A DNA stretch of 25,355 nt from a virus: positions 1 through 25,355 of the IMG/VR virus record IMGVR_UViG_3300044638_003463; one strand, 5' to 3'. Below the pieces are notes generated by a model that worked only from the letters and a program-made list of their open reading frames with translations, made no database searches and was not told where the DNA came from. The position numbers and the translations under genes were made by a program. Positions 1,082 to 20,153 of the stretch are shown here, in pieces. The first letter of the stretch is position 1; each line of letters opens with the position of its first letter.

Positions 1082-1087
1082 TGTCAA
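1082..1087 (-). promoter_or_regulatory. Start-associated TTGACA hexamer, 19 nt before ATG 1062
   Basis: The coding strand reads GATTGACATCA just after the TAA of the preceding gene, with 19 nt between the hexamer and ATG 1062. It is one of seven gapped gene junctions carrying TTGACA. This copy and the one before ATG 6324 use 19 nt rather than the exact 14 nt seen elsewhere. No Shine-Dalgarno sequence is visible. Confidence 0.5.
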
Positions 1088-1089
1088 TC

Positions 1090-2268
1090 TTAGGGCATCG
1101 GGAAGAGCTTAGGATACAACCGCACGCGCTTAGTGTTGGTCGGCAGAACTGGCCCCATATCGACCACAAAACGGTGGCTCAAGTCGCGAGGATAGCCATT
1201 GTTGAGACTGGTAAACGATGTGCTTGGCACGTCTGTCCATGTGATGCCGTCATCACTCCACTGTGGCGCAAAATACCAAGTGACAAACATTCTGGTGGCG
1301 GCTGGCACTGCTGTCAGGTAGGCCGTCCGCACTCCGCCCGCTTCCACGATCTGCACCGATGGCCCGGTGGCTGGCAGGCGCCGCGATGACATCGGATTGC
1401 CTCCGTAAATCATCTCTTCAAAGTTGGTAAAGCCGTCGCCGTCCGGATCGTTGTACAGGCCGTCACTGCCTACGGTGATTGCATACGCCGCCTTGAATGC
1501 GGTAAAGTTGGCGGTGGCCACAGTAGAGACCGCCGTTGTCGGGTCATCTGTCAGGTAGACGTTTGCTCCGCTACCAAAGATTTCAGACGCCCCGCCTGCC
1601 AATCCATAGCGCGCATACCCAAGCCCAACACGCTGCATCAATGCCGTCTCCTCTGGCCCCCAGACTGCTCCACCGGCAGGCGGCCAGTAGGAGATGCCGT
1701 CGTATCCTTGGTTTTTGAAAGTGGTTAAACCTGCCTCTCCAAACGCCGATGGCGGCCCGGTCGCGATCCAATAGATGGACACGGTTGGGAAGTATGGCCG
1801 CATGGTTGCGGCGCTTACCGACGGGAAGAACAGACCGGCCAAGAGCGTGACGCGCTCAAGCGGAAAGCCCGCCTGTTGAATTGCGTTCAACATAGCGTTC
1901 TCTGTACCGGCCACCTTCGGCTCGATCATGACGCGCACCCGATACGGTTTAATCGCAAGCAACGCCTCCACCAGCGTCGGCACCTGCTGCCCGGCATACG
2001 ATGGCCCAAAATCGACCCCTGCATCCAGCGCCTTGATCTGTGCCAGCGTTTTTCCCACCACTGTCCCGGTCCCGTTGGTCGTGCGATCGACCGTCGCATC
2101 GTGAATACAGACCGGTACGCCGTCAGATGTCAGGTGCAGGTCAAGCTCAATCATCGCAACGCCCGCCTTCGCAACGGCATTGTAGCTCTGCACGGTGTGC
2201 TCTGGCTGGCCTAGAAGGTTGCCACGGTGTGAGCGAAGCTCAGCAAGATATGGTTCGCGGTTGTTCAT
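1090..2268 (-). CDS. Glycerophosphodiester phosphodiesterase-like tail protein with TSP3-like C-terminal region
   Basis: A 392-residue protein. ATG 2268 is chosen because it overlaps the preceding stop as ATGA; upstream in-frame codons only shadow the previous gene. Residues ~10-250 match the GDPD TIM-barrel family. The HRG motif is at 14-16, followed by PEHT, then IELD with E41 and D43, SDG, CIHD with H56, and MIEPK with E116. The expected acidic metal ligands and both catalytic histidines are therefore present. The family hydrolyses glycerophosphodiesters, so the phage enzyme may attack phosphodiester-containing surface glycans or lipid headgroups during adsorption. From ~272 to 291 there is a DPDGDG...NFEE segment like a calcium-binding thrombospondin type 3 repeat, then a beta-rich C-terminus. 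There is no signal peptide, as expected for a virion protein. Virion attachment is inferred from the flanking fibre genes. Confidence 0.8.
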   Translation of the reverse strand: MNNREPYLAELRSHRGNLLGQPEHTVQSYNAVAKAGVAMIELDLHLTSDGVPVCIHDATVDRTTNGTGTVVGKTLAQIKALDAGVDFGPSYAGQQVPTLVEALLAIKPYRVRVMIEPKVAGTENAMLNAIQQAGFPLERVTLLAGLFFPSVSAATMRPYFPTVSIYWIATGPPSAFGEAGLTTFKNQGYDGISYWPPAGGAVWGPEETALMQRVGLGYARYGLAGGASEIFGSGANVYLTDDPTTAVSTVATANFTAFKAAYAITVGSDGLYNDPDGDGFTNFEEMIYGGNPMSSRRLPATGPSVQIVEAGGVRTAYLTAVPAATRMFVTWYFAPQWSDDGITWTDVPSTSFTSLNNGYPRDLSHRFVVDMGPVLPTNTKRVRLYPKLFPMP

Positions 2269-3992
2269 ACTGAAGGAGCCCCCATCGCTATAGCCAGATT
2301 GAAAAGCATCAAAGAGAATGTATCCGTTGCCGCGCCAGTAGTACCAATGGCCCGGCCAATATAGAAGAGAGACGAAGGCTGGTTGTGCAGGATGCCTCCC
2401 GGCCCAAGTAGGCTGCCGGTCGTGTTGCCGTTGTAGAAGAGAAACCCGCCCAGCTTGTTGTCCCGGATAATGGCGTTTGCGTTGGTGTTTGAAGTCGTCA
2501 AGTCGGTCGTGTCTGCGATACCCGCCGCCAGCCGTCTCCGGGTGCTGAATAGCGTCCCCTTGCGAGCAAAGTGGATCAAGCCCAGCGGATTTAACGCGCC
2601 CACCGTTCCACCCACATAAAGCTCTGGCAGGCCAAGGTTCACGTGCAAACTGCCGCCCGTCGATCCAACCGCCGCCCGGAACACGCCCGGCGTGGTCGTG
2701 CTGCGTGACGTGGTAAACCACCGATTCGTTCCGCCCGAGACTGCATCGTTCCGCGCACCGATCATGGTGTTGTCGTCCGTCAGCGGTGGCGAGTGTGAGT
2801 AGTAGGTTAATGAGTAATCCGTCTCTTCCCATACTTGTGCCACGGTTGAGTCAAAGTCGATCATGCCGGAGTTGGTCACTCCGGTCGGCGCGATGTATCC
2901 GCCCGGCTGCGTAAAGTCTCCGGCGTTGTTGGCGCCGGTCGATGAGTTGCGAATGAATGGTCGGCTGGAGCTTGCCGGGTGCAGCCAGTCGAGAAGATTG
3001 GCCTGCATGTTGCTGGCCCAAACTGGCAGCATTAGACGCGAGCGGCTGGTATTGCCGCTGATCATGCCCATTGCGTCCACGTACTGGTAGAACGTGTTAA
3101 TGGCGACGATCTGCGCATCGGTAAGCGTGACGCCTGCATCATTGAGGGATAGTAGCGTGTCGCGCCCAGAACGCGGCACACGCGCCAGATCCAGCAGGAG
3201 ATTGATTGATGCCCAGTGTGAGAGAGTGCCGCCTGCATCGCCAAGAGGAACGCCAAGCGTGTCCGTGAGCGACGGCGCCACCGTTGGCAGTGAATGCACC
3301 TCAGAGAATGAATGCGTGTGTGATGGCGGCACACCGCCCGCACCGCTGATCAATTGCCAGTCGCCAGCCGTGACGCCAATCGAAACCCACACTTCCAGCG
3401 TATCGACCTGCACGCCGATAAGCCCGAGCTTGTAAGGAACCGACGCCAGCCGCGCCTGCGTGTTGGCGAATGATTCAGTCCCGCCGGCGCTTTGCGCCAC
3501 CGCCCCGTAGACGATTCCGTTGATGTTGCGGAATGAGTAGACATCCGTCCTCGCTCCTATGCTCTGCACCGGGATTGAGTCGTTCGGCCATTTGATTGTC
3601 CCTGGCCACGTGATGATGTAGTTGCCGCTCGTGTTCGTCACCGCAACCGTGATCCCTTGACCCGGTAGCGCGTTCGAAAATGTGAACGTCGTATTTGCCG
3701 CAAGTGTCTTGTAAAAGCTCGTACTGGTCGCCCAGTCGATGGCTGCGGCGGTCACGTTGGCATCCGTACCGACTACCGCACGCACCGTCAGCTTACCCTG
3801 CACCGTCTGGTCAGTGGTGAACGTGTTGGCAGTTCCGACTAGCGCCGCCGAAAGCGTAGTAATCACGCCCGATCCGTTGAACCCAATCGCCTTGTTGGTG
3901 TTCGCCGTCCCTAGCAGATCAATAAATTGATTGTCGCCGGAGGCATCGCGTTGGATCAGGGAAACATTTCTTGGCGTGGTGACGGCACTCAT
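2265..3992 (-). CDS. Large tail fibre protein (575 aa)
   Basis: It starts at ATG 3992, which shares a base with the preceding TAA (TAATG), and ends overlapping the phosphodiesterase-like start by four bases. Residues 1-70 end in an ANTFTTDQTVQGKLTV segment typical of phage fibre repeats. Residues ~86-165 form a beta domain widespread in phage fibres (FYKTLAANTTFTFSNALPG, then ITWPGTIKWPN and DVYSF). Residues ~175-215 follow another common fibre pattern ending AGDWQL. HTHSFSEV at 225-232 resembles the His motifs of tail-collar domains. The C-terminal ~250 residues (WEETDYSLTYYSHSP onward) look like a concanavalin/LamG-type carbohydrate-binding sandwich, which suggests the receptor-contacting tip. 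It is the largest fibre in the window and a plausible host-range determinant. The exact receptor cannot be read from the sequence. Confidence 0.75.
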   Translation of the reverse strand: MSAVTTPRNVSLIQRDASGDNQFIDLLGTANTNKAIGFNGSGVITTLSAALVGTANTFTTDQTVQGKLTVRAVVGTDANVTAAAIDWATSTSFYKTLAANTTFTFSNALPGQGITVAVTNTSGNYIITWPGTIKWPNDSIPVQSIGARTDVYSFRNINGIVYGAVAQSAGGTESFANTQARLASVPYKLGLIGVQVDTLEVWVSIGVTAGDWQLISGAGGVPPSHTHSFSEVHSLPTVAPSLTDTLGVPLGDAGGTLSHWASINLLLDLARVPRSGRDTLLSLNDAGVTLTDAQIVAINTFYQYVDAMGMISGNTSRSRLMLPVWASNMQANLLDWLHPASSSRPFIRNSSTGANNAGDFTQPGGYIAPTGVTNSGMIDFDSTVAQVWEETDYSLTYYSHSPPLTDDNTMIGARNDAVSGGTNRWFTTSRSTTTPGVFRAAVGSTGGSLHVNLGLPELYVGGTVGALNPLGLIHFARKGTLFSTRRRLAAGIADTTDLTTSNTNANAIIRDNKLGGFLFYNGNTTGSLLGPGGILHNQPSSLFYIGRAIGTTGAATDTFSLMLFNLAIAMGAPSV

Positions 3993-4552
3993 TAGGAAAC
4001 AGCAGGGACGGAATAACTGACACCATCAACGGTGACGACGATCATCCCATCAATAACTGTGACCTCCCCGTCAATCGGTCCGGGAGGCGTGTCGGTCACC
4101 GCATCAAAGCGGTAGATTGCGCCGTTATACGCGAACGAAACCACCTCATTGACCACGGAGAAGGCGATGGTGGTCACCGGCGCCAGCGACAGGCCCGACG
4201 GGATGACCTCAATGTTGCCGGATCGCAGCAGATAAGGAAAGCCGTTGGAATCAAGCCCTCCGATGGCGAGCCAGTAGTTGTTGCTGTTGATCTCGTCGGA
4301 AAGCACGAGATTCATCTGTGCCGCCGTCAGAACAAACGTGACGGCGCCACCGGCCACATATCCAGCCGATGATGCCAGCGGAGTTGCTCCCACCTCTCTG
4401 GCGTCGTTCTGTCTTTTCCACAACTCCAGCACCCACTCAGACATTGCCGGAGCGGATGGGACTGCACCTGTGATCAGGAGCGGAGTCGTCGAGAACACCG
4501 GCAACATGCCAAGGTCAGCGGTCGATTCGGAGAGTGAGATTGTGCGAGTCAT
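3992..4552 (-). CDS. Fibre-cluster structural protein (186 aa)
   Basis: ATG 4552 is used because it overlaps the endolysin stop as ATGA; the longer in-frame extension lies inside the endolysin gene and reads as Arg-rich shadow sequence. The 186-residue product is beta-rich with scattered Thr/Val/Ala segments. A middle section (MSEWVLELWKRQND, then AAQMNLVLSDEINSNNYWLAIGG) reads like the receptor-cluster baseplate proteins that sit before fibre genes. The end (GEVTVIDGMIVVTVDGVSYSVP) contains two tandem, nearly identical beta strands. It links the lysis cassette to the large fibre gene, whose ATG overlaps its TAA. The family is not recognised; an adaptor between tail tip and fibre is an inference. 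Confidence 0.6.
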   Translation of the reverse strand: MTRTISLSESTADLGMLPVFSTTPLLITGAVPSAPAMSEWVLELWKRQNDAREVGATPLASSAGYVAGGAVTFVLTAAQMNLVLSDEINSNNYWLAIGGLDSNGFPYLLRSGNIEVIPSGLSLAPVTTIAFSVVNEVVSFAYNGAIYRFDAVTDTPPGPIDGEVTVIDGMIVVTVDGVSYSVPAVS

Positions 4553-5109
4553 CGTGTGGCTTGAAAGTGCATACTGTCGCGGCTCCAATAAGCGCCGCCG
4601 GAAAGCCAGCCTTCGTCGGCAAAGTACTCCATGACTTCGAGCGGCATAGAAGCGTCTGTCGGCCAAGCTGTGTTATTGCCGTTTGATCCTGACATTAAGT
4701 CAATCGCCGCACCCCAAGCGTGCAAGCTCTTACGCGATCCTCCGCGCATGTTGCGGTCGTTGAAGCAACCGGCGTACTGCTTAAGCACGTATGGATGCGT
4801 TTTGCTGATCGCGGTTAGCACGCGATGCAGGCTAGACGCGACACGCGTGTGGCAGCGGATAGTTTTGACCGCTTGGCTTTCGTAGTGCACACCAAGGTCG
4901 GAGACCGACAGATTAACCAGATTGCTCTCGTCACCCGGTTGGCCATAGAAAGCAATCAGCGATTGGTCGTCCTGCATCGGCCATTGAACCGGCACTGGCC
5001 GCAGGCGGTCCAGATGCTTCTGGCAAGCAGCACGCGACATCGGCCCCCACACACCATCAGGAACGACGCCGATCTTTTCCTGCATCAATTGGATGTCCTG
5101 TTTTGTCAT
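4549..5109 (-). CDS. Endolysin: M15-type D,D/L,D-peptidase with N-terminal wall-binding segment
   Basis: A 186-residue lytic enzyme. ATG 5109 overlaps the preceding stop as ATGA and is preferred over the upstream in-frame codon, which lies inside the small membrane gene. Residues ~5-30 (IQLMQEKIGVVPDGVWGP) match the start of PG_binding_1-like peptidoglycan-binding repeats, although the module is short. Residues ~85-186 match peptidase M15 of the VanY/DacY type. SLHAWGAAID supplies zinc ligands H130 and D137, and SMHF supplies H181. M15 endolysins cleave the peptide stems of peptidoglycan. There is no signal peptide, so release depends on a holin, consistent with the four or five small membrane genes just upstream. 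It is the last gene of the lysis cassette before the fibres resume. Confidence 0.88.
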   Translation of the reverse strand: MTKQDIQLMQEKIGVVPDGVWGPMSRAACQKHLDRLRPVPVQWPMQDDQSLIAFYGQPGDESNLVNLSVSDLGVHYESQAVKTIRCHTRVASSLHRVLTAISKTHPYVLKQYAGCFNDRNMRGGSRKSLHAWGAAIDLMSGSNGNNTAWPTDASMPLEVMEYFADEGWLSGGAYWSRDSMHFQATR

Positions 5110-5207
5110 GGGGAAAAAGAACTCAGAATCCAGCCAAGCATGAAAAACCAGCATACAACCATGAGAGCGAAGAACGCAACGTGAAGGAGTGCTTGGAGTG
5201 TTGGCAT
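5106..5207 (-). CDS. 33-aa single-span membrane peptide of the lysis cassette
   Basis: A very small frame from ATG 5207, whose first base is the last base of the preceding TGA (TGATG), to a TGA overlapping the endolysin ATG (ATGA). Coupling at both ends strongly supports a real gene despite its size. The product, MPTLQALLHVAFFALMVVCW plus 13 residues, is nearly all one transmembrane helix (about residues 6-28), with no clear charge except one His. Such peptides next to endolysins are often holins, antiholins or other lysis accessory proteins. It has no spanin-like periplasmic domain. The specific role cannot be assigned. Confidence 0.6.
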   Translation of the reverse strand: MPTLQALLHVAFFALMVVCWFFMLGWILSSFSP

Positions 5208-5515: not shown

Positions 5516-5519
5516 AAGC

Positions 5520-5684
5520 TCACCAAACAAGTGTCACCGACAAAAGCAAGCCTTCCATCATCCCAGCCTTGAACCCGTCGCGCCAGTCAGTGCTCTTGTC
5601 CGGAAAGAGCGAAGCGTCTGGCATCTGTTGGATGCTGACACACGAGCACGAGCCAAGCGCGAGGATAAGAAGAATGATTTTCAT
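5520..5684 (-). CDS. 54-aa lipoprotein, possible outer-membrane spanin-like lysis protein
   Basis: A short gene from ATG 5684, which overlaps the preceding stop as ATGA, to TGA at 5522-5520. The first residues MKIILLILALGSC form a classic lipoprotein signal peptide with lipobox LGSC, so Cys13 would be acylated; a second Cys follows at 15. The mature ~42 residues are short and polar (IQQMPDASLFPDKSTDWRDG) and end in a hydrophobic patch, EGLLLSVTLVW. Very small lipoproteins inside lysis cassettes are typical of Rz1-like o-spanins. Rz1 proteins are usually proline-rich, and this one is not. A matching inner-membrane spanin could be the coiled-coil membrane protein at 6028-6324. Gram-negative hosting follows if this reading is right. 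Confidence 0.65.
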   Translation of the reverse strand: MKIILLILALGSCSCVSIQQMPDASLFPDKSTDWRDGFKAGMMEGLLLSVTLVW

Positions 5685-6028
5685 CGCACTTTGGAATCTT
5701 GGCTCGACTTGTTAGCGTCCCGCGCAGCAATCAAACCAGCGCCGGCTATAATCTCGCCAGTTGCCAGTTGCAGCCCTTCCAGCGTCAGCGGCACCCCATC
5801 GGTCACCTGCAAGAGCGCATCGACCACAGCGCCTAATCCGTGCAAAATAAGAGCCACCCCCGCCAGCGTCGTTTTCCAGTTGAGCAGGAAAGGCAGGATC
5901 TTGTTGGATAGCCATTTCATGGTCGTGCTGTGGATGATGTTTGATTTGATGACCGGCCTACCTGCAAGATCTTCCGCGCGCCGGACTTCTGGCCGCTTGC
6001 CAAAGATTGGATGACCGAGCGTGCGCAT
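5681..6028 (-). CDS. Holin-like small membrane protein (115 aa)
   Basis: Start ATG 6028 shares a base with the preceding TGA (TGATG). A later in-frame Met (MKWLSNK, residue 37, at 5920) could be the true start of the conserved part, because the first 36 residues are basic and unconserved-looking. From there NWKTTLAGVALILHGLGAV gives one membrane helix, and TGEIIAGAGLIAARDANKSS gives a second, ending in the GLIxARD signature. That layout is common in small phage and prophage holin-like proteins. It would make the inner-membrane lesions that release the M15 endolysin. It overlaps the lipoprotein gene downstream by four bases. The holin role is inferred from topology and location. Confidence 0.65.
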   Translation of the reverse strand: MRTLGHPIFGKRPEVRRAEDLAGRPVIKSNIIHSTTMKWLSNKILPFLLNWKTTLAGVALILHGLGAVVDALLQVTDGVPLTLEGLQLATGEIIAGAGLIAARDANKSSQDSKVR

Positions 6029-6324
6029 CAAGGATTGAGCTTGTTGTCAATTTTGTCGAGCTTCTCGACGATTGACCGCAGCAGTTGCGTGTCCGCCGAG
6101 TCTTTAATCTCCAGATTGCGGACTGTGCTGTTGGTCGCGCCAATCGCATCCTTCACGTCCCTGAGCGATTCCGTCTGCCTGTTGATCGCGATCTGGATTG
6201 CCGCCACCCATGTGCCCAGCATAAATGCGCCGACAAGCAGCGCCCAGCCTAGTTTGACCACTAAGTCGAGGATCTTGAGCTTTGACTCAAAATCCTGAAG
6301 TTGTTCGCGCGTGACAGGTTCCAT
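6028..6324 (-). CDS. Membrane protein with periplasmic coiled coil (98 aa), lysis cassette
   Basis: Starts at ATG 6324 after the 99-nt gap holding the tRNA-like element. A short N-terminal helix (EQLQDFESKLKI) precedes one membrane span at about 20-46 (LVVKLGWALLVGAFMLGTWV...). The rest (~50-98) is a likely coiled coil, with heptad-like ESLRDVKDAIG and LLRSIVEKLDKIDNKL. A single N-terminal anchor with a C-terminal coiled coil is the layout of Rz-type i-spanins. XhlA-like haemolysin proteins use the reverse order. With the lipoprotein at 5520-5684 it could make a two-component spanin, although the usual nested Rz/Rz1 arrangement is absent. It is the first gene of the lysis cassette and has its own start-associated TTGACA 19 nt upstream. 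Confidence 0.6.
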   Translation of the reverse strand: MEPVTREQLQDFESKLKILDLVVKLGWALLVGAFMLGTWVAAIQIAINRQTESLRDVKDAIGATNSTVRNLEIKDSADTQLLRSIVEKLDKIDNKLNP

Positions 6325-6343
6325 GTCTTGATCGCATTCCGTC

Positions 6344-6349
6344 TGTCAA
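6344..6349 (-). promoter_or_regulatory. Start-associated TTGACA hexamer, 19 nt before ATG 6324
   Basis: The coding strand reads CATTGACAGAC immediately after the CCA end of the tRNA-like element. The hexamer lies 19 nt before ATG 6324. It shares TTGACAGAC with the copy before ATG 20133 and the 19-nt spacing with the copy before ATG 1062. Confidence 0.5.
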
Positions 6350-6910: not shown

Positions 6911-7663
6911 TTATGAGCCTAGAACCAAGATGTTGACGTTGAGACCGTTGGTTCCGTTAAGGAGAACAGTCAGCGTTTGGGTCGTTGCCGACTTCCTGCC
7001 TGTTGGCGTGGTGTAGATGAATGAACCACCCTCGTAAATTGGCAATGGCACCGACGTGTTTGTCACCACTCCACCGAACCCGTCGCTCTTGATCTGCGCG
7101 CAGATGAGGCCGGTGATGGTCCAGTCGGCCAAGGTGCCAGTGCCGCCAATCGTGTCCACCGCCACCGTCAAAGTGGTCGAGGCGTAGCTGGTCACAGTGC
7201 CTTCCATAAAGTTTGCGGCGTTGGCTGCTGATGTGGCGCGAACTCGCATGTTTGCAACGTAGCCCAATGATGGCGCAACAGTGAACGCTTTAGACGCCAC
7301 CTCGATGGCCAGCGAGGTCGTCGATGCGGCAGTCGGACGAACCGAAGTAGGCGCAACCGCTGGATCGCGCCGCGTCACGGTAATATAAAGCCCGCGCCAG
7401 TAGTTGAACGCCAGAGTGGCGTTGGTAATTGGATTCGTCAGTGCAACGGCAGAGCCGCCGTTGAGTACCGAGTTGACGGTTGTGCCGCTGGTGGCCAGCG
7501 TGTTTGCTCCAGTGCCCGGCACGCCAAACACCTCGAACACCCCGGAAATCAGATCCTCTTCACGCACCACCAAGTCAGGCACTTGCTGAGTTGCGGAGGG
7601 AATGACCGAGTTGCCCGGATAGCTGTTTTGCGCTTTAAGCGTCAACGCGAAGATGTTCGGCAT
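6911..7663 (-). CDS. Virion-associated beta-rich protein (250 aa)
   Basis: Starts at ATG 7663, with TTGACA exactly 14 nt upstream and a 23-nt gap from the previous gene. The N-terminus (MPNIFALTLKAQNSYPGNSV, then VPDLVV) aligns by eye with the start of the 160-aa neighbour. The remaining ~200 residues are Thr/Val/Ala-rich beta segments (SLAIEVASKAFTVAPS, FMEGTVTSYASTTLTVAVDT, TQTLTVLLNGTNGLNVNI). This is the style of tail-fibre shaft or tip proteins, without enzymatic motifs. As an uncoupled start between the glycine-rich fibres and the smaller paralogue it may open a new translation unit. The specific function is unknown. Confidence 0.6.
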   Translation of the reverse strand: MPNIFALTLKAQNSYPGNSVIPSATQQVPDLVVREEDLISGVFEVFGVPGTGANTLATSGTTVNSVLNGGSAVALTNPITNATLAFNYWRGLYITVTRRDPAVAPTSVRPTAASTTSLAIEVASKAFTVAPSLGYVANMRVRATSAANAANFMEGTVTSYASTTLTVAVDTIGGTGTLADWTITGLICAQIKSDGFGGVVTNTSVPLPIYEGGSFIYTTPTGRKSATTQTLTVLLNGTNGLNVNILVLGS

Positions 7664-7677: not shown

Positions 7678-7683
7678 TGTCAA
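7678..7683 (-). promoter_or_regulatory. Start-associated TTGACA hexamer, exactly 14 nt before ATG 7663
   Basis: The coding strand reads GATTGACACAA in the gap after the TAA of the previous gene. Exactly 14 nt separate the hexamer from ATG 7663. No Shine-Dalgarno-like purine run lies at the usual distance. The six bases after the ATG (CCGAAC), where a -10 box would fall at 17-nt spacing, are not promoter-like. Confidence 0.6.
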
Positions 7684-7686: not shown

Positions 7687-8562
7687 TTAGATGAATGTCA
7701 CGGTCGGTAGGCTGATAAACACGCTGCCGACTTGATGGTGCGTGATGGTCGATCCGGATCGGGTTAGAAGTCGGAGGTTGGCGGTTGTTGCACTAGAGGA
7801 AGGCTTGCTGGCCGACACAACAAACGACGCACTCGATACCGTCCATTTTCGGATGTTTGCGGCAGCCTTCGTGTAATTCTGAAATTGCACAAGCAAACCC
7901 TCCTCGCCGCCTTCACCGTACCCGCCTTGGCCTCCATTTCCTGCATTTTTTGGTTCTGAAGGTGGAGAGTTTGTTCCGCCCGCTCCGCCAGCACCCCCAG
8001 TTCCGGGAGATCCGCTTGACCCATTGCCTCCAGCCACGCCATTTGCCCCTTCTCCTCCTGTCGTCTTACCGCCGCATCCGCCCCCGCCGCCGCCGCCGCC
8101 GCCACCACCCGTACCCCCGACGACGGTCAAAGTCTCTTGATCCGCAGTCGAGAGAGCACCGACTACTTGGCCTGTTGATGGCGTAAATCCGATCTGAAGC
8201 CAAACAGAGAACCCAGTAGCCACCGCTAAAGTTGCGCCTGCTACAGTCGCCACCGATTCCGTCCACCCCCCGCTGCTGGGATTGTTCACATCGTAGGTGC
8301 TCCACGAGACGCCCAGCACTTTACCGCCCAGGATAATGACGTTCTCGCCCGAGAGAACGCCGGTGAAGTCGATAACGCTGGAGGTAGCCGTCGCTCTGCC
8401 CTGCTTGCTTGATACGATGATGCCGTCGTCGGTCTCTTGCAGCGTGATACCGTTGCCAGCAATCGGCATCTGCTCATAGATGGCCTTGCGAAACATGGCC
8501 AGCGTCTTTCCCTTGAGGAAATAGTGCAGGTTGCCAAAGAAGTTGGGAAAATCAGGGAACAA
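7687..8562 (-). CDS. Glycine-rich tail fibre/tip protein, paralogue 3 of 3 (291 aa)
   Basis: Third of three tandem paralogues. The start is TTG 8562, overlapping the previous gene by 11 bases. It is chosen because MFPDFPNFFG then aligns with MLPDIPNFN and MLPELPVID at the starts of the other two. Residues ~1-60 hold the shared GKTL...Q(M/T)PI...I.L.ET head. A beta middle follows (VWLQIGFTPSTGQVVGALS). A polyglycine tract with a central Cys and collagen-like G-rich repeats spans ~150-222. The last ~65 residues (RKWTVSSASFVVS...) form a shared C-terminal beta domain ending in TVTFI. Glycine-rich tips occur in phage adhesins such as the polyglycine-II fold of S16-like gp38, so a receptor-binding role is plausible but unproven. 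Confidence 0.7.
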   Translation of the reverse strand: MFPDFPNFFGNLHYFLKGKTLAMFRKAIYEQMPIAGNGITLQETDDGIIVSSKQGRATATSSVIDFTGVLSGENVIILGGKVLGVSWSTYDVNNPSSGGWTESVATVAGATLAVATGFSVWLQIGFTPSTGQVVGALSTADQETLTVVGGTGGGGGGGGGGGCGGKTTGGEGANGVAGGNGSSGSPGTGGAGGAGGTNSPPSEPKNAGNGGQGGYGEGGEEGLLVQFQNYTKAAANIRKWTVSSASFVVSASKPSSSATTANLRLLTRSGSTITHHQVGSVFISLPTVTFI

Positions 8563-10983: not shown

Positions 10984-12753
10984 TTAAGCGGCTGCAAGGT
11001 TTTTCAAAATGTCTCTGATGTCCACAAGCGTTGCCTCTTTAGGAAGAGCGTCGGCCCATTTTGGCGTGATGTTTTTTCTCGCTTGTTCACGGAATGCTTC
11101 GCGATCTGTTTTTTCCCGTTCAAGGATATTCCTGCCCTTGTTCTTTTCCTCGGCCTCTTTCTTAAGCCGGGTCATTTCGTCCCGCACGTCGTCATTGAAC
11201 GCCCTCCGCCGTTGGCGCTGCATGTCGTTGTTGTCCCGCATCTCCTGCTTCCTTTCGGCTGGCGTGCGTCCCGCCTTTTCGATCGAGCGTTGCACGGCTT
11301 CGCGGTTTTGGTCTCGCAGTTCAAGAGCCCCTCTCTCGGCTTCGTCTGTAATGCTTTGCTCAAGTCCGAGAATCTCTTCTTTGAGACCGATGATGCGGTT
11401 GTACTGCTCCACTTGACCTTCTGTCACGTTGCGACCGTTTTTGACCGCATCCTCGAACGCCGAGACGGTTAGCTTGTCGAACCCGCCCGGATCGTCGCCC
11501 ATTAAAACATCGCCTTCTGCCTTCAGTGCTTCTTGAGCATTGGTCAGCTTCTCCGCATCAGATCCGGCCATGGACTGCTGAGCCGAGTACACCGCCTCCT
11601 GTACGCTTTTGATTTTGCGCACCGTGTCCTCGTGCAAGCTCAGCAGCTCCTTGGCGTCGGAGATCGCTTGATCGGCTGCCTTCTTGGCGTCGTCTTGTGT
11701 TTGCTTCTCCTTGGCAGCGTCTTCTTGATTGAACCGCTCCTCATTCTGCCACTTGATAGCGTCCAGCTCGCGGTTCTCCTGATTGCCTTTGTCTAAAGCC
11801 TCTTGGAGTTTCTTGCGCTCTTCCGCTGCCTTCAAAGAGTCCGCTTCCGCTGCTTTCTGGCGGTCCAATGCGCGAAGAAGTTTCCTTTGATCTTCATCTT
11901 CAATAGAAACACTACTGCCCAAAAACTTTAGAGAAACCGCTTCTTCGTTAGCTTTAATCTCATTTTGTTTTTTGATTATATAATCTAAAGAGGCCGACAG
12001 CCCGCCTGCAAGCATTTTTGTAAATCCAGAACTGCTTTCTCCGGTCATCTCTTTTAACGTATCAAATTTTGCTTTGATAGCATCAATTTGACCGCCTAGC
12101 CCGCGTTCCAATTTAGGCATGGCCTCAGCCATTTTCAGCAATGTTTCAGCCACCTGCTTTCCGCTTAGGTTCAGCTTCTGCAAGTCCTCCGCGCGAGCCG
12201 ATCCAAACGCTTGAGTGAGAAGTTTAGCGGTGACTGGAAGAGCTTCTTTCAACTGACCAAGCTCTTCCGCCAACGGTTTAGGCGATGCGTAAAGCTGTTG
12301 CAAGCCGTAGATAAACCGGCCCAGCTCTTCGCTTCCTCCACCCCCTGAACCGATTGCATTCTGGAGCGTTCTGATCGTCTTGAATGCGTTCGCTGCACTC
12401 ATGCCTGCGGCCTGAAGTTGAAGCGTTGCCTTCGCCGCAACACCCATATTTAGACCGATTTCAGATGAAAGCTTTTTGAGCTGCTCATATTGCTGCATCC
12501 CCAAAAAGTCATTGCCTGCTGTGGCCTTTAACGCGTTTTGGAGTTTTTCCGCTTCGATGTAGGTTGAGGTAATGTCCTTTGCCACAGAAACAAAAGCCGA
12601 CCCGATGGCGCCACCGATAGCAATGTTCTTCAGCATCGAGAACGTTGCCGACATCTTCGACACCGCCGCATTCGTGTTCTTCATGGCACCGTCCAGCCCG
12701 GTCGTAAATTGACTGGAATCGAGCCTGAGTGATGCGTCTAGCGTAGCTGCCAT
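10984..12753 (-). CDS. Tail tape measure protein (589 aa)
   Basis: Starts at ATG 12753 with TTGACA exactly 14 nt upstream. Residues ~1-240 match the tape-measure N-terminal domain: LRLDSSQFTTGLDGAMKNT, membrane-like LKNIAIGGAIGSAFVSVA at 42-58, and LQAAGMSAANAFKTIRTLQN. Residues ~285-430 are a long charged coiled coil (RQKAAEADSLKAAEERKKLQ), and the C-terminal part is also strongly helical and charged. The tape measure sets tail length and is ejected with DNA. At roughly 1.5 angstroms per residue, 589 residues would give a tail near 90 nm. The chaperone frameshift pair directly upstream is the canonical context. The segment 11900-12080 is noticeably AT-richer than its surroundings. Confidence 0.9.
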   Translation of the reverse strand: MAATLDASLRLDSSQFTTGLDGAMKNTNAAVSKMSATFSMLKNIAIGGAIGSAFVSVAKDITSTYIEAEKLQNALKATAGNDFLGMQQYEQLKKLSSEIGLNMGVAAKATLQLQAAGMSAANAFKTIRTLQNAIGSGGGGSEELGRFIYGLQQLYASPKPLAEELGQLKEALPVTAKLLTQAFGSARAEDLQKLNLSGKQVAETLLKMAEAMPKLERGLGGQIDAIKAKFDTLKEMTGESSSGFTKMLAGGLSASLDYIIKKQNEIKANEEAVSLKFLGSSVSIEDEDQRKLLRALDRQKAAEADSLKAAEERKKLQEALDKGNQENRELDAIKWQNEERFNQEDAAKEKQTQDDAKKAADQAISDAKELLSLHEDTVRKIKSVQEAVYSAQQSMAGSDAEKLTNAQEALKAEGDVLMGDDPGGFDKLTVSAFEDAVKNGRNVTEGQVEQYNRIIGLKEEILGLEQSITDEAERGALELRDQNREAVQRSIEKAGRTPAERKQEMRDNNDMQRQRRRAFNDDVRDEMTRLKKEAEEKNKGRNILEREKTDREAFREQARKNITPKWADALPKEATLVDIRDILKNLAAA

Positions 12754-12764: not shown

Positions 12765-13016
12765 TTATGTCAATGAGTTGACAAGCCTGCTCGTCTTACG
12801 TTGCTGGATGTAATCCATCGCGTTCTTGATGGTCTCGTCCTCCATCATGTCGTGTCCAACCCACTGGGTTTCGATGCCTTCTTTGACTAGCGCGATGTGC
12901 AAGTATGCAAGCCCGCGACACAGCGGCAACTCCCACAGAATCTCCTGCTCCGTCAGTCCAGTGATTGGCCGCACCAGCGAAACATAGTGCGCTTGAAAGA
13001 CCGGACTGGCTAACGC
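12765..13016 (-). CDS. Tail assembly chaperone extension (gpGT-like), reached by -1 frameshift
   Basis: This frame has no credible start codon of its own between the end of the 150-aa chaperone gene and its conserved part. It is entered by a -1 ribosomal slip at GGGAAAG (13022-13016). After the slip the next codon reuses G13016 (GCG) and 83 residues follow, beginning ALASPVFQAHYVSLVRPITG. The fusion product is 149 + 83 = 232 residues. In lambda and most long-tailed phages the frameshifted G-T protein helps load the tape measure and assemble tail tubes; the extension binds the tail tube protein. The stop lies 11 nt from the tape-measure ATG, the usual arrangement. A helical C-terminus (IKNAMDYIQQRKTSRLVN) is visible. 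Confidence 0.85.
   Translation of the reverse strand, partial: ALASPVFQAHYVSLVRPITGLTEQEILWELPLCRGLAYLHIALVKEGIETQWVGHDMMEDETIKNAMDYIQQRKTSRLVNSLT
12768..12773 (-). promoter_or_regulatory. Start-associated TTGACA hexamer, exactly 14 nt before ATG 12753
   Basis: The coding strand reads CATTGACATAA. The TTG ACA codons are the last two residues before the TAA of the chaperone extension, so the hexamer overlaps coding sequence. The exact 14-nt distance to the tape-measure ATG matches four other gene starts. The gap after the stop is 11 nt and shows no clear Shine-Dalgarno sequence. Confidence 0.6.
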
Positions 13017-13862: not shown

Positions 13863-14267
13863 TTAAACGACGAATGGGTACTGTTTAACCGAGAAGGTAG
13901 TCTTGGCCATTTCGGTATTCGTCTCGGAGCGATTCGGGTCCATGAAGATCATGGTGCCATCCGCTGGAACGAATCCGTAGGTGTTCGCGGTAAAGTTGGC
14001 CAGCGTGGTGACTTGCGTTCCTGGGTGCTGGTTGGCTAGGCCGGTCGTCTTGTTGGACAGGTAACCGTCGAACGCAAAAGTGATCGTTGGGTTGCGGTAC
14101 TCAAGCCCAAAGGTGGCCCCAGCGGCGTTCAGGTAAGCCTTCTCGTCACGCGCAGCCGTGATCGTCAAAGACTGAACGAGGATGTCTGGAGTAACGGCAT
14201 TGCTCTCATCCAGCAGCGTTGAGGATGGAATGTTTCCGTGTTGAATCAAAGCGGCGACGGCAGGCAT
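13863..14267 (-). CDS. Putative major tail (tube) protein (134 aa)
   Basis: ATG 14267 has TTGACA exactly 14 nt upstream. The 134-residue product is a compact beta protein with the feel of tube proteins: TPDILVQSLTITAARDEKAY, then FGLEYRNPTITFAFDGYLS, and a C-terminal strand pair FVPADGTMIFMDPNRSET then FSVKQYPFVV. Its order after the tail terminator and before the chaperones matches lambda V and HK97 gp13-type tube genes. At 134 residues it is shorter than lambda gpV (246) because no C-terminal Ig-like domain is present. It would stack as hexamers around the tape measure. The call is by context and fold style, not by clear homology. Confidence 0.65.
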   Translation of the reverse strand: MPAVAALIQHGNIPSSTLLDESNAVTPDILVQSLTITAARDEKAYLNAAGATFGLEYRNPTITFAFDGYLSNKTTGLANQHPGTQVTTLANFTANTYGFVPADGTMIFMDPNRSETNTEMAKTTFSVKQYPFVV

Positions 14268-14281: not shown

Positions 14282-14287
14282 TGTCAA
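14282..14287 (-). promoter_or_regulatory. Start-associated TTGACA hexamer, exactly 14 nt before ATG 14267
   Basis: The hexamer follows the TGA of the tail-terminator gene with no base between (TGATTGACATCA), so it is entirely non-coding here. Its 14-nt spacing to the tail-tube ATG is therefore not a by-product of codon use. This is the cleanest example of the motif in the window. Confidence 0.65.
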
Positions 14288-15800: not shown

Positions 15801-15802
15801 AC

Positions 15803-15840
15803 AAAAAAGCGGCTGACAAGCATGAAAGCCTGTCAGCCGC
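15803..15840 (-). terminator. Strong intrinsic terminator between head and tail genes
   Basis: On the minus strand a perfect 10-bp stem, GCGGCTGACA with TGTCAGCCGC, extends by three more pairs (one G-U) to close a 6-nt loop, and six T residues follow immediately. It lies 29 nt after the cement-protein stop. The T run ends two bases before ATG 15800, so a read-through transcript would hold the next start next to the hairpin. Confidence 0.85.
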
Positions 15841-15869
15841 CCACGATGAATAACACCCAGCACCAAAAA

Positions 15870-16280
15870 TTAGGTCAGCAGTCTGACGGAGGCGCTTACC
15901 GCGCTCATGTCGCCCGTAGTGCCGGCTGTGGTGAACTTAGCGTTCACATAGCGCGGACAGTTCGGAGGAAGCCGGAATCGGAAGGATGTTTGAGGGATTG
16001 CGCTACCTGTGCCAGTCAGCACCGCTGAGATGTTTAGGCTCGTGGTTGGAGTGACTGCCGATCCACCCTGCAAGAGGATGGTGATCGTGTCCGCTGATGC
16101 GAGCTGCGTAGCAGTCAAAGCAGGGATCAAGACTTCTACTTCGGTATTCTCAGGGAAAAACCCTTTAGAATTGGTGCCGAGGTCGAGGTCAGGGGATTGG
16201 ACGTTGCCGTCAGAGGCGGTCAGCAGACGAGCCTTGGTCAGGTCCGCGTCCTGAATGTTTCGAGAAAATTCGTTAGCCAT
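15870..16280 (-). CDS. Putative capsid cement/decoration protein, Bbp16-like (136 aa)
   Basis: ATG 16280 lies 19 nt after the capsid stop, and the gene follows the major capsid gene as decoration genes often do. The sequence is beta-rich. It opens with a conserved-looking start (FSRNIQDADLTKARLLTASD), then SPDLDLGTNSKGFFPENTEV and a strand TITILLQGGS. The C-terminal half (SFRFRLPPNCPRYVNAKFTT, then AGTTGDMSAVSASVRLL) resembles the LPP...RY...F...GT motif of Bbp16-family cement proteins. Such proteins bind the outside of the head at capsomer junctions. There is no enzymatic motif. The family call rests on pattern and position and is moderate. The terminator lies just downstream. Confidence 0.6.
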   Translation of the reverse strand: MANEFSRNIQDADLTKARLLTASDGNVQSPDLDLGTNSKGFFPENTEVEVLIPALTATQLASADTITILLQGGSAVTPTTSLNISAVLTGTGSAIPQTSFRFRLPPNCPRYVNAKFTTAGTTGDMSAVSASVRLLT

Positions 16281-16299
16281 TGTAATAATTCTTTAGAGA

Positions 16300-17256
16300 T
16301 TAAGCGGTAAGAGCTTCGTCGTTGAGGATGGAATCGGTGATGACGATCGGGATGCCGTTCGACTCAGTAGGTAGAGGGGCAAAGATCTCAGAACCGCTAG
16401 AGGTTTTGACACCGTTTTGAACCGTGGAAGCTGAGCGGCTGACCTGCAACTGGAAGGCCGAGCGGCGGTTCATGAGCCAGTAATTAGGCCGGTAGCCCAC
16501 TGGGTATTTGCTAAGCAACTCAGCAAGTTTGGCGTCGGTGACACCCATACCCGAATCAGCGGTAGCGTCTTTCAGGCGGCCCACGCTGTACTTGCTGCCG
16601 ACCTGCATACCCACCCAAGCGGTCAAGTTAGCAACGTGCGCAGGATAGACCGAGTCGGTTCCCACGTTTTCGATGCGCCATTCGCCAAGCTCAAAAGTGG
16701 TGCCGGAGCCGAACACGAGCTGTACGCCTTGCGTATCAGTATTGATGCCGTACACCGAAGAGCCAGTACCAGCACTTGTTCCGCCTGCATCGACCGTTAG
16801 CGCGGAAGCACCCAGACCGGAGTTAAAAGCGGTATGGATAGCCTGCAAGCCGGGAAAGCCCTTCGCATCAACAGACGTTCCATAGATGACCTGTGAACCA
16901 AGCTCGATCATGGCTTGGCGCATGACGCCGATAGATTCGATGTCTTTCCATGCTTGTTCTCCGTCCTCGTAAGCGCGAGCGACCGCAATATCGGCCTGAA
17001 CGGCGCCACTGAGAATGTAGCACTCGATCAACTGGTTTTCAAAGCTCGATTTCGTCGGAGTCGAGCCTTCGTTAGCAGCGCGGAACCCGACGCCAGGATA
17101 AGACGTGCGAGAGACGACTTTGTAGCTGGTGCCGCGAATGGTGCGCGCTGGCATGATCTGCACCTCGGGAGCGTAGGTGAGGGTTTCCTCAATCAGCCCG
17201 ACGATGGTGTCGGAGCCGTTGAGCTTAGCGATATCGAGAAGATTGGCTTGTGGCAT
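16300..17256 (-). CDS. Major capsid protein, HK97-fold (318 aa)
   Basis: Starts at ATG 17256, 18 nt after the protease-scaffold stop. The N-terminal residues (ANLLDIAKLNGSDTIVGLIE) form the start of an N-arm or spine-helix region. GVGFRAANEGSTPTKSSFEN at ~57-76 and QADIAVARAYEDGEQ look like the E-loop and spine-helix features of HK97-fold coats. Residues YWLMNRRSAFQLQVSRSAS (~257-275) and the end GIPIVITDSILND are typical of major capsid proteins of this kind. At 318 residues it is normal for a lambda-sized head. With no separate maturation cut site visible, the scaffold would be removed by the upstream protease. The call rests on fold-like motifs plus synteny. Confidence 0.85.
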   Translation of the reverse strand: MPQANLLDIAKLNGSDTIVGLIEETLTYAPEVQIMPARTIRGTSYKVVSRTSYPGVGFRAANEGSTPTKSSFENQLIECYILSGAVQADIAVARAYEDGEQAWKDIESIGVMRQAMIELGSQVIYGTSVDAKGFPGLQAIHTAFNSGLGASALTVDAGGTSAGTGSSVYGINTDTQGVQLVFGSGTTFELGEWRIENVGTDSVYPAHVANLTAWVGMQVGSKYSVGRLKDATADSGMGVTDAKLAELLSKYPVGYRPNYWLMNRRSAFQLQVSRSASTVQNGVKTSSGSEIFAPLPTESNGIPIVITDSILNDEALTA

Positions 17257-17274
17257 GGTCTTGGTAGAAAGTTG

Positions 17275-17685
17275 TTATGAGTTGGCCGAAACGTAAGCCG
17301 CTTCGGTTGGGAATTTTTCGGTGAACGCACGAACCGCTTTCAAGCGATCGAGACCGGTTGAGGTGCCGATAGCTTGATTCTTGGCTTCGTGGTAGGAGAT
17401 CGCTGGAACCTTGACTTCCGGCTCGTTAATAGGAGCGGCAAACGCAGCAGGAGCAGGAGCGGCGGCGGCGAGGCGAGCTTGCAGCTCAATGTCGCTGTTA
17501 CCAGCTTGCAACGCTTCCACGTAGGCCTTAAGTGCCTCACACTCGGCGAGCACTTTTGCGTTGTCGGCGGCAAACTGCGTAGCCACTTCGTCAAACTTAG
17601 CAGTGAAAGCGGCGAACTGCTCCGCAATCAGAGCGGAAAAATCAACTTGAGGTTCTGGCGCAGGCGCCGGTGGGTCAATTGGCAT
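17275..17685 (-). CDS. Separate scaffold from in-frame internal start (Nu3-like, 136 aa)
   Basis: An internal ATG at 17685 (residue Met168 of the fusion) is in frame with the protease-scaffold gene and lies precisely at the end of the protease domain. A TTGACA hexamer at 17705-17700 precedes it by exactly 14 nt, the same spacing as at five full-length gene starts here. The product (MPIDPPAPAPEPQVDFSALI...) would be the free 136-residue scaffold with the Pro/Ala linker and coiled coil. Lambda makes Nu3 from an internal in-frame start of gene C in the same position, so a scaffold excess would be biologically expected. Protein evidence is lacking, so this is a strong prediction rather than an observation. 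Confidence 0.65.
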   Translation of the reverse strand: MPIDPPAPAPEPQVDFSALIAEQFAAFTAKFDEVATQFAADNAKVLAECEALKAYVEALQAGNSDIELQARLAAAAPAPAAFAAPINEPEVKVPAISYHEAKNQAIGTSTGLDRLKAVRAFTEKFPTEAAYVSANS

Positions 17686-18186
17686 AACATCTTCGTCACT
17701 GTCAATCTGATCAGCCGAGAACACGCCGTCAGCGTTAGCGGCGGGTGTGTCTACAAAGTCTGCCGAGTATAGACCGCGTGGGCGGGTCATGTAGTTGCCG
17801 CTCTCCTTGTCCAACTCTGGCGCATCCGCTGCAAACATCAAACTCACGCCGAAAGTGGAGGGGATTTCGTTGATCATTTCAAGCAGCATCTCTTTTCCGC
17901 TGTGCGCGTCGAATAAAGTCAGATCGGCTAGGAGCTTGCCTTTACTGACCCGGAAATTCTCGTAATAACCCACCGTATCCTGCACCGAAGAGAAGTGATT
18001 AAGCTTTGCCTTCACCCTTCCCTTCTCGATTGCGAGTGACTTAAACTTGTTCAGCGAACGCTTGTCCACAAACACGCCATGACCGAGCGCCGGGCCTTCC
18101 TGAATCAAGGAAACGCCCATGATGGTATTTCCTGAAACCTTGCCTTGGAACGCTGCGAATGTCTGAATCTCTTCGGTGACTGGCAT
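17275..18186 (-). CDS. Head maturation protease fused to scaffold (303 aa)
   Basis: ATG 18186 lies 16 nt after the portal stop, with TTGACA exactly 14 nt upstream. The long in-frame extension above it is an Arg-rich shadow of portal and is rejected. Residues ~1-160 match herpes-assemblin-like prohead proteases. The likely catalytic His is H64 in KLNHF, the likely Ser is S115 in FGVSLMF, and an Asp-containing YSADFVDTPAA motif sits at 140-150. From ~168 onward the sequence becomes acidic and proline-rich (PPAPAPEPQ), then a coiled coil (LIAEQFAAFTAKFDEVATQF, then KVLAECEALKAYVEALQ), as in scaffolds. The lambda parallel is gene C with Nu3 at its 3' end. The protease would cleave scaffold and head proteins during maturation. 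Confidence 0.85.
   Translation of the reverse strand: MPVTEEIQTFAAFQGKVSGNTIMGVSLIQEGPALGHGVFVDKRSLNKFKSLAIEKGRVKAKLNHFSSVQDTVGYYENFRVSKGKLLADLTLFDAHSGKEMLLEMINEIPSTFGVSLMFAADAPELDKESGNYMTRPRGLYSADFVDTPAANADGVFSADQIDSDEDVMPIDPPAPAPEPQVDFSALIAEQFAAFTAKFDEVATQFAADNAKVLAECEALKAYVEALQAGNSDIELQARLAAAAPAPAAFAAPINEPEVKVPAISYHEAKNQAIGTSTGLDRLKAVRAFTEKFPTEAAYVSANS
17700..17705 (-). promoter_or_regulatory. Internal start-associated TTGACA hexamer, exactly 14 nt before ATG 17685
   Basis: Within the protease-scaffold gene the coding strand reads GATTGACAG. In frame it encodes Ile-Asp-Ser, so it could be coincidental. Its exact 14-nt distance to an in-frame ATG at the scaffold boundary argues otherwise. 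Confidence 0.55.
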
Positions 18187-18200
18187 ACACGCCGCCCCGA

Positions 18201-18206
18201 TGTCAA
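18201..18206 (-). promoter_or_regulatory. Start-associated TTGACA hexamer, exactly 14 nt before ATG 18186
   Basis: The TGA of TTGACA is the portal stop codon (GAT TGA CAT). Exactly 14 nt follow before the protease ATG, and they contain TCGGGGCGG, whose G run could also act as a weak Shine-Dalgarno sequence. Confidence 0.6.
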
Positions 18207-19861
18207 TCAGTGCTGCCAGCCTCGGCTTCGTCCTCGGCAATGTCTTCGGCCTCGTCCTCTGGCGACTCTTCATCCTCGACTTCTGGCACGTCCTCCTCAG
18301 GCGCAGCCGCTGGCGCCGGGATAGCCGGCGCGTTAGGTGCCCGCCGCTCAAGCATGTAGATGGCAGTTGGCAGATCCAGCACGCCGCCGGATGCGTCTTG
18401 CACCATCTTCGCATCTTCGACCAGCTCCATCGCCTCCGCGCGAAGCAGGCTGCGAATGATGTTGCGATCCTCACCGCGATCCGCCGCAATCTGCGTCTTG
18501 CTGATAATTCCGGCCATGGTCTCGTCGATCAGAGCTTTGGATTCGCGCCCGATGTCGGCTGTGACTTTGGCAGGAAAACGCCATTCACCCGCATCAAAGT
18601 CAGCCACGGCTGGCAAGTGGCCGAGCTGGATGCCGCGAGCAATGACGCGGATAACGATCGGATACAGAAGCTTTTCCTCCAGCGTTAGCTGGGTCATTTC
18701 AAACTCCCGCGCGGCCTGCGCAGCTTCCATCCTGACCGCTGTCCCTTGTCCCGCCCAGGAGTAGATAAATCCGTAAGGCAGCCCGACGGCAAGTCCGGTC
18801 GAGCGAACGAGAGTGTCCAAGAACCCGTTAAAAGTCGGTGACGGGCGGTTGAAATCAACCGGGTTGAACGATTCACCCTCTGCAAGGTACTGGATCGCAC
18901 CCGGCTCGACCTTCTTCATGCGGTCGGCGTCGCTCATGTAGTCGCTGTGCGTCGTGTCGAGCGATACGTCTTGATCGGCGCTGCCGTCCGCATTGTTGAT
19001 GACACCGCTGATTGAAGAGAGATACTTCACTGAGATTTTCTCACATGCGAGGATCTCTTGCAGATCCTTGATGTCAGTGATAGCTGCGTCGAACGCGGAA
19101 AAGCCTCGGTAAGAATCAAGCCGGGTCGGGTCGAACAAGTGCAGGAACTCCTGCGCCGGCACCTCAAGCGCAGGCATCATGGACTCACCGGTTGTGCTGC
19201 GGTTGTAGATGCGGTATCGGATCGGCCTACCCGTCGAGTCGATGACAACGCCGGAAAAGTCCTGCTCGCCTCTCTTGAGCGGCTTGAACGGTTTTGCATC
19301 TGTCCCGTTGCGGTTTGGAATTGAGCCAATGCGGTCAGCCTCGATGGCCTGTAGCCGGATCGGACTGATTTTCAGCATCTCGTCGAGCTGCGTCATCGGC
19401 ACTTCGGACACGATGTAACCGATGTCACCGTCCCGCTTCATCGAGGTCACGCCCAAACCGGCCAGCACCCGAAAGTGGTGGCGCCGGGTCAAGTCGCAGC
19501 TCGCCATCCACCGCTCAACATACGCTGTGATCGCCCTGTTGGCTTCCTCGGAGCTTGTGCGCGGCACGTACTGCAAGCGGCCCACCGAAAAGGTGCGGTA
19601 CTTGCGCAGGATGCTTTTAACCACACTGCTATTCTCTTCCAGCCACCGAGCCTCCCGGATGAGCGTCACCCGGTCGGTATGGTTGCGGCTGGAATCTGGC
19701 TGATCAAGTGATTGCCCGCTCGCCCGGCGATTGGTCGATGATTGCGCTCCGACGCGCCAGTAGCCCGTCCTTTCGCCCGCCTCAAGCTGCGCCTTCGCGC
19801 GTTGGCGTTGCAAGGCGGTTGCCGGACTGAAAAACCTGATCGTTTGTTCGATAAAACTCAT
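18203..19861 (-). CDS. Portal protein, lambda gpB-like (552 aa)
   Basis: ATG 19861 overlaps the gpW-like stop as ATGA. The lambda-type portal signature is clear. There is an N-terminal helix-rich clip region and ARWLEENSSVVKSILRKY at 71-88. QAIEADRIGS at 171-180 is the conserved IEADRI motif, and HLFDPTRLDSYRGFS at 241-255 is also typical. SWAGQGTAVRMEAAQAAREF near 368-387 lies where other lambda-type portals carry a Ser/Arg/Glu-rich helix. The portal ring forms the DNA channel at one head vertex and binds terminase and connectors. The last ~50 residues are strongly acidic and Pro/Ala-rich (EEDVPEVEDEESPEDEAEDI), probably disordered. The length is close to lambda gpB (533). Confidence 0.92.
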   Translation of the reverse strand: MSFIEQTIRFFSPATALQRQRAKAQLEAGERTGYWRVGAQSSTNRRASGQSLDQPDSSRNHTDRVTLIREARWLEENSSVVKSILRKYRTFSVGRLQYVPRTSSEEANRAITAYVERWMASCDLTRRHHFRVLAGLGVTSMKRDGDIGYIVSEVPMTQLDEMLKISPIRLQAIEADRIGSIPNRNGTDAKPFKPLKRGEQDFSGVVIDSTGRPIRYRIYNRSTTGESMMPALEVPAQEFLHLFDPTRLDSYRGFSAFDAAITDIKDLQEILACEKISVKYLSSISGVINNADGSADQDVSLDTTHSDYMSDADRMKKVEPGAIQYLAEGESFNPVDFNRPSPTFNGFLDTLVRSTGLAVGLPYGFIYSWAGQGTAVRMEAAQAAREFEMTQLTLEEKLLYPIVIRVIARGIQLGHLPAVADFDAGEWRFPAKVTADIGRESKALIDETMAGIISKTQIAADRGEDRNIIRSLLRAEAMELVEDAKMVQDASGGVLDLPTAIYMLERRAPNAPAIPAPAAAPEEDVPEVEDEESPEDEAEDIAEDEAEAGSTD

Positions 19862-20133
19862 AGCGGAAAGGTTGAAAAGTCAGGTTTGAGGCGGTTGGAG
19901 ATACCCGGATACTTTACGGGGTCGAGCTGGTGCATTCTGCGCATCACAGCCCGCATCAAAGTCATGACGGGAATGCCGCCATCCGATCCAGATGCGCGGG
20001 TTTCGGACTCACCGCCGCCCGATGTGCTGATAACGATGGTGCCCTGCCCTTCGGTCAGCGCCGAAAGACACTGATCGTAAAGCGTCTCGCAAAATTGCAG
20101 AGAAGCATACCGTAAAATCGAAGGTCCGCCCAT
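19858..20133 (-). CDS. Putative head-tail joining protein, gpW-like (91 aa)
   Basis: ATG 20133 lies 16 nt after the terminase stop, with TTGACA exactly 14 nt upstream. A far upstream in-frame reading would run antisense-like through terminase and is rejected. Lambda gene W lies in the same slot, between A and B. The product has a first helix (LRYASLQFCETLYDQCLSAL) and a Gly-rich beta-hairpin (GQGTIVISTSGGGESETRAS). A second helix follows (PVMTLMRAVMRRMHQLDPVK), then a tail, STFPL. This helix-hairpin-helix order corresponds to gpW (68 aa). The hairpin GTIVISTSGGGESE is longer than in lambda. gpW-type proteins stabilise packaged DNA and bridge portal and connector. Family homology is by layout and position only. 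Confidence 0.65.
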   Translation of the reverse strand: MGGPSILRYASLQFCETLYDQCLSALTEGQGTIVISTSGGGESETRASGSDGGIPVMTLMRAVMRRMHQLDPVKYPGISNRLKPDFSTFPL

Positions 20134-20147
20134 AAAGTCACTCTGTC

Positions 20148-20153
20148 TGTCAA
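20148..20153 (-). promoter_or_regulatory. Start-associated TTGACA hexamer, exactly 14 nt before ATG 20133
   Basis: The TGA inside the hexamer is the stop codon of the large terminase (GCT TGA CAG). The 14 nt to the gpW-like ATG include GAGTGAC, a possible weak Shine-Dalgarno-like run. The context TTGACAGAC is shared with the copy before ATG 6324. Confidence 0.6.

Follow-up and report, generated by a model that had tools for sequence, protein, structure and literature searches.

TTGACA upstream of start codons as a probable gene-start signal in a lineage of Verrucomicrobia phages

We propose that a lineage of Verrucomicrobia phages uses the hexamer TTGACA, placed 13-16 nt ahead of the start codon, as a cis-acting signal for gene starts, most likely one for the sequence-specific initiation of translation, a reading to which we give a probability of about 0.58. 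The hexamer is locked to starts, locked in direction and conserved at the nucleotide level. The original prediction, which had pointed to a translation-initiation or mRNA-processing element, stands with regard to this association with starts, while the action at translation is what we infer. A search of the open-access literature found no description of a TTGACA start motif, and the signal looks, from its sequence, previously undescribed and different from both a promoter and an ordinary ribosome-binding site.

The window and its gene content

The stretch of DNA analysed here (the window) is the 25,355-nt virus record IMGVR_UViG_3300044638_003463, whose minus strand holds a head-tail late operon. 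The relatives of its TerL found in cellular genomes are mostly on Verrucomicrobiota contigs (~30% identity), and the host of the phage is therefore probably a verrucomicrobial bacterium. The main genes are as follows:

24759-25211, minus strand, helix-turn-helix (HTH) protein, a candidate regulator common to both motif-bearing phage groups
20150-21958, minus strand, TerL
18203-19861, minus strand, lambda-type portal
16300-17256, minus strand, major capsid protein of the GP7 family, with a gapped start (ATG 17256) lacking TTGACA, likewise in relatives
10984-12753, minus strand, tape measure protein (TMP_3)
4549-5154, minus strand, M15-like endolysin

Two overlapping ORFs are found on the minus strand at 1090-3992, one tail-fibre-like (2265-3992) and the other holding a glycerophosphodiesterase-like stretch (1090-2832). 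Both are matched by a single 1145-aa ORF (20426-23863) in the relative G006, so the window counterpart appears to have been split by a frame change. An RNA ligase gene (PF09414; L216:11958-12557) is also present in G006, which is nearly complete and related to the window phage. Three similar glycine-rich proteins (MLPELPVI, MLPDIPNF and MFPDFPNF types) are encoded in a row at 7687-10329 of the minus strand and are probably tandem tail-fibre/tip paralogues. Many 6-bp palindromes (CTCGAG, GGATCC, CGGCCG, GAGCTC and others) are almost missing from the coding sequences of the window clade, which suggests restriction avoidance.

TTGACA sites in the window

TTGACA occurs ten times on the minus strand, exactly as counted before, and three times on the plus strand. 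Since this total of 13 matches the expectation (13.2) and is not in excess, the signal lies in the placement of the hexamer and not in its abundance. The arrangement TTGACA-N14-ATG appears six times on the minus (coding) strand and never on the plus strand; in 1000 dinucleotide shuffles of the window it was found 0.12 times on average and at most twice, and no shuffle gave more than 3 at its best spacing out of 41. The minus-strand sites are the following:

24067..24072, minus strand, no start nearby
20148..20153, minus strand, N14 before ATG 20133 (gene 19858-20133, 91 aa, between TerL and portal)
18201..18206, minus strand, N14 before ATG 18186 (capsid protease/scaffold gene 17275-18186)
17700..17705, minus strand, N14 before the internal in-frame ATG 17685, a predicted nested scaffold start
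14282..14287, minus strand, N14 before ATG 14267 (tail-region gene 13863-14267)
12768..12773, minus strand, N14 before ATG 12753 (tape measure gene 10984-12753)
7678..7683, minus strand, N14 before ATG 7663 (gene 6911-7663), retained in the relatives G006 and G010
6344..6349, minus strand, N19 before ATG 6324 (gene 6028-6324), a doubtful site
6045..6050, minus strand, N16 before ATG 6028 (gene 5681-6028)
1082..1087, minus strand, N19 before ATG 1062 (gene 817-1062), an outlying spacing

The distances claimed for the six N14 starts and for ATG 6028 were all confirmed, as was the lack of a start near the copy at 24067-24072. The N16 of ATG 6028 is kept in G006 and falls within the 13-16 range of relatives. 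The two N19 sites are there as described, but they are weaker cases: that of ATG 1062 is retained in G006 and G010 with a changed spacer, and that of ATG 6324 is retained in G010 and lost in G006, one of the two relatives. At two sites (20148-20162 and 12768-12783) a perfect inverted repeat, TGTCAA-N3/4-TTGACA, is observed, which is not general in the family.

Conservation in related phages

All 21 related contigs searched (the window group) carry the exact TTGACA-N14-ATG, mostly in 5-6 copies each and on the coding strand only, the reversed control pattern being found 0-1 times. Spacers vary widely in this group, while the hexamer and the 14-nt distance are fixed; the site at 20148..20153, for instance, was found with a varied spacer in 21 of the 21 related contigs scanned.

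A second, wider group of 80 contigs was collected by TerL alignment, its TerL being ~30% identical to that of the window group. After deduplication, it holds 270 TTGACA on the coding strand and 13 on the opposite one, and in 237 cases an ATG or GTG start, with 50 open codons, follows at N13-N16. Of these, N13, N14, N15 and N16 account for 86, 64, 26 and 61, respectively, with 0-3 for most neighbouring spacings and 10 for N9. The hexamer is preferentially preceded by G and followed by C, and the sequence ahead of the ATG is GC-rich in this group. The proteins encoded downstream of motif sites cluster into 24 families, 18 of them with at least two sites, and include ParB-like proteins, methyltransferases, TerS, proteases and tape measure proteins. 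The motif also precedes an integrase gene in one prophage, and in this same record one minus-strand gene has TTGACA on its own strand. A further motif-bearing gene of the wider group (L220:13281-14000), located just upstream of the terminase genes, matches the tRNA methyltransferase family phrog_4752.

A viral collection was also scanned blindly with the extended pattern CCGTTGACACC-N11-ATG, using a scrambled pattern as a control. At least 120 contigs were recovered and, among the matches listed, 40 strand entries had at least two start-linked sites, most of them encoding the same TerL lineage; with the scrambled pattern, only 1 among 91 contigs had at least two. Start-linked loci were found in contigs of Chthoniobacterales/Spartobacteria, Opitutales and Akkermansiaceae/Verrucomicrobiales, and such sites were not found in phage P8625 or in the loci L076 and L084. 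The genome LW23 holds two motif-bearing TerL loci. The tree has long branches, and the signal may be ancestral or may have been gained twice. In P8625 (L071), TTGACA stands ~35 nt ahead of the ATG at several starts and precedes a TATCCA/TTGGATA-like sequence; to judge from their sequence, these copies are closer to true promoters with short leaders and unlike the window signal. Enrichment in relatives had been named as a check of the original prediction, and the attempt to refute it failed, TTGACA being start-linked in both groups.

A nested start in the protease/scaffold gene

The protease gene of the window group has an in-frame ATG at codon 168 that is preceded by the motif in 18 of 18 genes, and that of the wider group has one at codon 273-282 preceded by TTGACA-N14 in 33 of 33 genes. 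The wider-group protein is a Peptidase_S49/head maturation protease with its domain at 117-260/120-264, and the nested ATG sits right after this domain. As the motif precedes an in-frame nested start, TTGACA marks a start and not a gene border. The codons lying under the nested motif are single-codon positions in both groups: ATT and GAC in the 18 genes of the window group, and GTT and GAC in 31 aligned rows of the S49 group, in genes where invariant-residue columns using a single codon amount to 14/172 and 2/143, respectively.

The predicted nested product of the window (17275-17685, 136 aa) has a long helix; in the structural model, a 46-residue helix (184-229) begins 16 residues past M168, and the N-terminal half is of low confidence. 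In lambda, the C/Nu3 gene encodes an S49 head-maturation protease, and an internal in-frame start yields the scaffold. The arrangement described here, with an S49 protease gene and an in-frame internal ATG in the wider group, is by sequence of this protease-scaffold type, with a predicted scaffold product. In contrast to lambda, the internal start is marked by TTGACA, as is the external one, and the protease part of the window-group gene gave no S49 match.

According to these data, it is very improbable that the pattern reflects only chance or shared ancestry, even though the window has no surplus of TTGACA and orthologous sites are not independent. This explanation is countered by the shuffles, by the unrelated gene families that carry the motif, by an invariant hexamer next to changing spacers, by the synonymous conservation at the nested start, and by the blind scan.

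The signal is not used by host genes

Host genomes were checked as well, and they do not use the start-linked hexamer. In 59 Verrucomicrobiota genomes, TTGACA-N13-16-ATG (3701) was not commoner than the same hexamer at N25-28 (3663), and 695 kb of two hosts showed no enrichment of TTGACA at starts. The TTGACA start signal is thus phage-only.

Promoter, Shine-Dalgarno and RNA structure tests

TTGACA is the consensus of the sigma-70 -35 box, and the hexamers could be such boxes or could belong to promoters recognized by a phage polymerase or sigma factor, giving rise to short-leader transcripts. However, none of the 87 and none of the 228 sites checked has a TATAAT matching in five of six positions at a spacing of 15-19 nt, and -10 scores at motif sites are not clearly above those at other places in the same genes. 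In addition, the start point would be inside the gene, and in the wider group the region before the ATG is rich in GC. The sigma-70 identity was rejected, in line with the earlier claim that this is no ordinary promoter, and the promoter explanation as a whole is improbable. Ordinary -35 boxes had been named as a second outcome that would refute the original prediction, and at the level of sequence, with no -10 boxes at the sites, this check did not refute it either.

The rarity of Shine-Dalgarno (SD) sequences at motif starts was also borne out, SD-like sequences being present at 7-11% of them. TTGACA itself was rejected as an SD sequence, as it is not complementary to the 16S 3' end and lies 13-16 nt from the start instead of the 5-10 nt of an SD. 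Pairing with rRNA was likewise discarded: the host 16S rRNA ends in GATCACCTCCTTTCTA and offers no conserved match to TTGACA, and TGTCAA, even with G-U variants allowed, has no single conserved place in three host 16S rRNAs.

Shuffled sequences fold as well as the windows around motif sites (z near 0), which show no conserved fold, and a hairpin between hexamer and ATG was rejected, small stems being seen in the GC-rich group only. The predicted accessibility of the hexamer in the window group is 0.39 versus 0.51 in permuted sequences, that is, not raised. Compared with the remaining starts of these phages, those with the motif are more structured (-12.7 versus -6.7 and -8.7 versus -6.4 kcal/mol), which is expected if the signal substitutes for openness. 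No phage tRNA or tmRNA was found in nine loci.

On the coding strand of the phages, TTGACA away from starts is depleted to 0.20-0.26 of the number expected from codon shuffles, versus 0.60-0.66 in hosts, and TGTCAA is depleted to 0.24 in the wider group and 0.55 in the window group, all these ratios being approximate, as the gene sets are only partly independent.

Translation initiation and alternative mechanisms

In the preferred reading, TTGACA would work at the mRNA level, as a sequence-specific element for translation initiation. It would bring ribosomes to chosen starts, among them those without an open A/C-rich leader. The tight spacing in two distant phage groups, the unrelated downstream families, the nested start, the lack of -10 boxes, the scarcity of SD sequences, the greater structure at motif starts and the off-start depletion on the coding strand all speak for this reading. 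The element might be read by a phage RNA-binding protein or through an altered ribosome contact, both of which are possible. In its most specific form, which we consider an even bet, the phages and not the hosts would have an SD-independent initiation code, in which a dedicated factor steers ribosomes to UUGACA-N13-16, the nested scaffold start included.

Several points count against an action at translation. The 16S sequences offer no conserved complement, and hence no apparent rRNA-pairing mechanism; predictions do not show the hexamer to be accessible; no motif precedes the capsid gene, whose translation is presumably the strongest; and host genes make no use of the motif, even though translation in the infected cell relies on host ribosomes. 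The proposal that the element replaces the SD where coupling is absent proved too narrow, because motifs are present at -4 overlapping junctions in relatives (L083 7484, 11958 and 18066; L072 15369 and 18921) and gapped starts lacking TTGACA exist in the window, among them ATG 17256 of the major capsid gene and ATG 16280 of the next gene. That no tightly overlapping junction carries the motif holds for the window, but not for these relatives.

The depletion of TGTCAA in the wider group could reflect either duplex avoidance or a site acting at the DNA level. In the latter case, a phage DNA-binding protein, such as the HTH protein at 24759-25211, would bind TTGACA and block or modulate transcription in a stoperator-like manner. 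The proteins found to be common to several loci of both groups are TerL, the portal, the tape measure protein, one small structural gene product and this HTH protein, the only non-structural one, which was not found in P8625. A DNA site would also fit the many short, asymmetric copies in one orientation with respect to transcription, and the L5 stoperator GGTGGMTGTCAAG includes TGTCAA, the reverse complement (PMC3029335). Nevertheless, DNA binding gives no reason for a spacing locked to starts, including a nested in-frame one; just ~6-7 bases are conserved, no partner element lies at a fixed distance, and the fold matches of the HTH protein are not significant, the best being a weak one to sigma-A region 4 (E 0.9). 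We regard this explanation as unlikely.

Slightly less likely still is RNA processing, in which a phage or host endoribonuclease would cut at or near TTGACA to generate a short-leader mRNA for each gene. The fixed distance to start codons, the depletion of TTGACA elsewhere on the sense strand and the presence of one signal per gene inside polycistronic units would agree with it, and there is a precedent at initiation regions: the T4 nuclease RegB processes RNA sequence-specifically at GGAG, which is the SD itself, and toxin RNases cut at ACA. On the other hand, a cut site need not hold N13-N16 so strictly, no intact full-length protease message would survive a cut at the nested start, and no nuclease candidate common to both groups was found.

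Whichever factor recognizes it, a phage signal kept across distant phages and not used in host genes is a defined element with which to find that factor. With the motif, starts in these phages can also be annotated better, and nested scaffold genes come to light.

Comparison with known systems

T4 RegB is comparable in that it acts sequence-specifically where translation begins; a RegB-like nuclease was not found here. With regard to the hosts, many bacteria, including some Verrucomicrobia, initiate translation with little use of the SD, and Akkermansia and others are listed as SD-scarce (PMC10783764).

The stoperators of cluster A mycobacteriophages are 13-bp repressor sites that are mainly intergenic (PMC3029335, PMC9283540). 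Like them, TTGACA occurs in many asymmetric copies oriented with transcription. Unlike them, for which the cited passages report no fixed distance to starts, TTGACA is start-locked and lies also inside coding sequence, and ~6-7 bp are conserved instead of 13.

The closest parallel, already drawn in the original prediction, is with the start-associated sequences (SAS) of cluster K mycobacteriophages, which are 13 bp long (consensus GGGATAGGAGCCC), contain the SD core AGGAG, and are located 3-7 bp before starts (PMC3203893). SAS are found in the non-structural half of the genome and are absent from the host, and a role in translation is suspected, the function being unproven (PMC3203893). The parallel holds in idea: both signals are short, asymmetric and in a single orientation, they precede the starts of unrelated genes several times per genome, and they are not used by the host. 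In contrast, TTGACA does not share the 13-bp consensus or the 3-7 bp distance, as it comprises 6-7 bp at N13-N16 with no SD core, and it serves mainly head and tail genes, plus one prophage integrase and a nested in-frame start. For the start-associated sequences of phages, unexplained as they are, TTGACA offers a compact test case.
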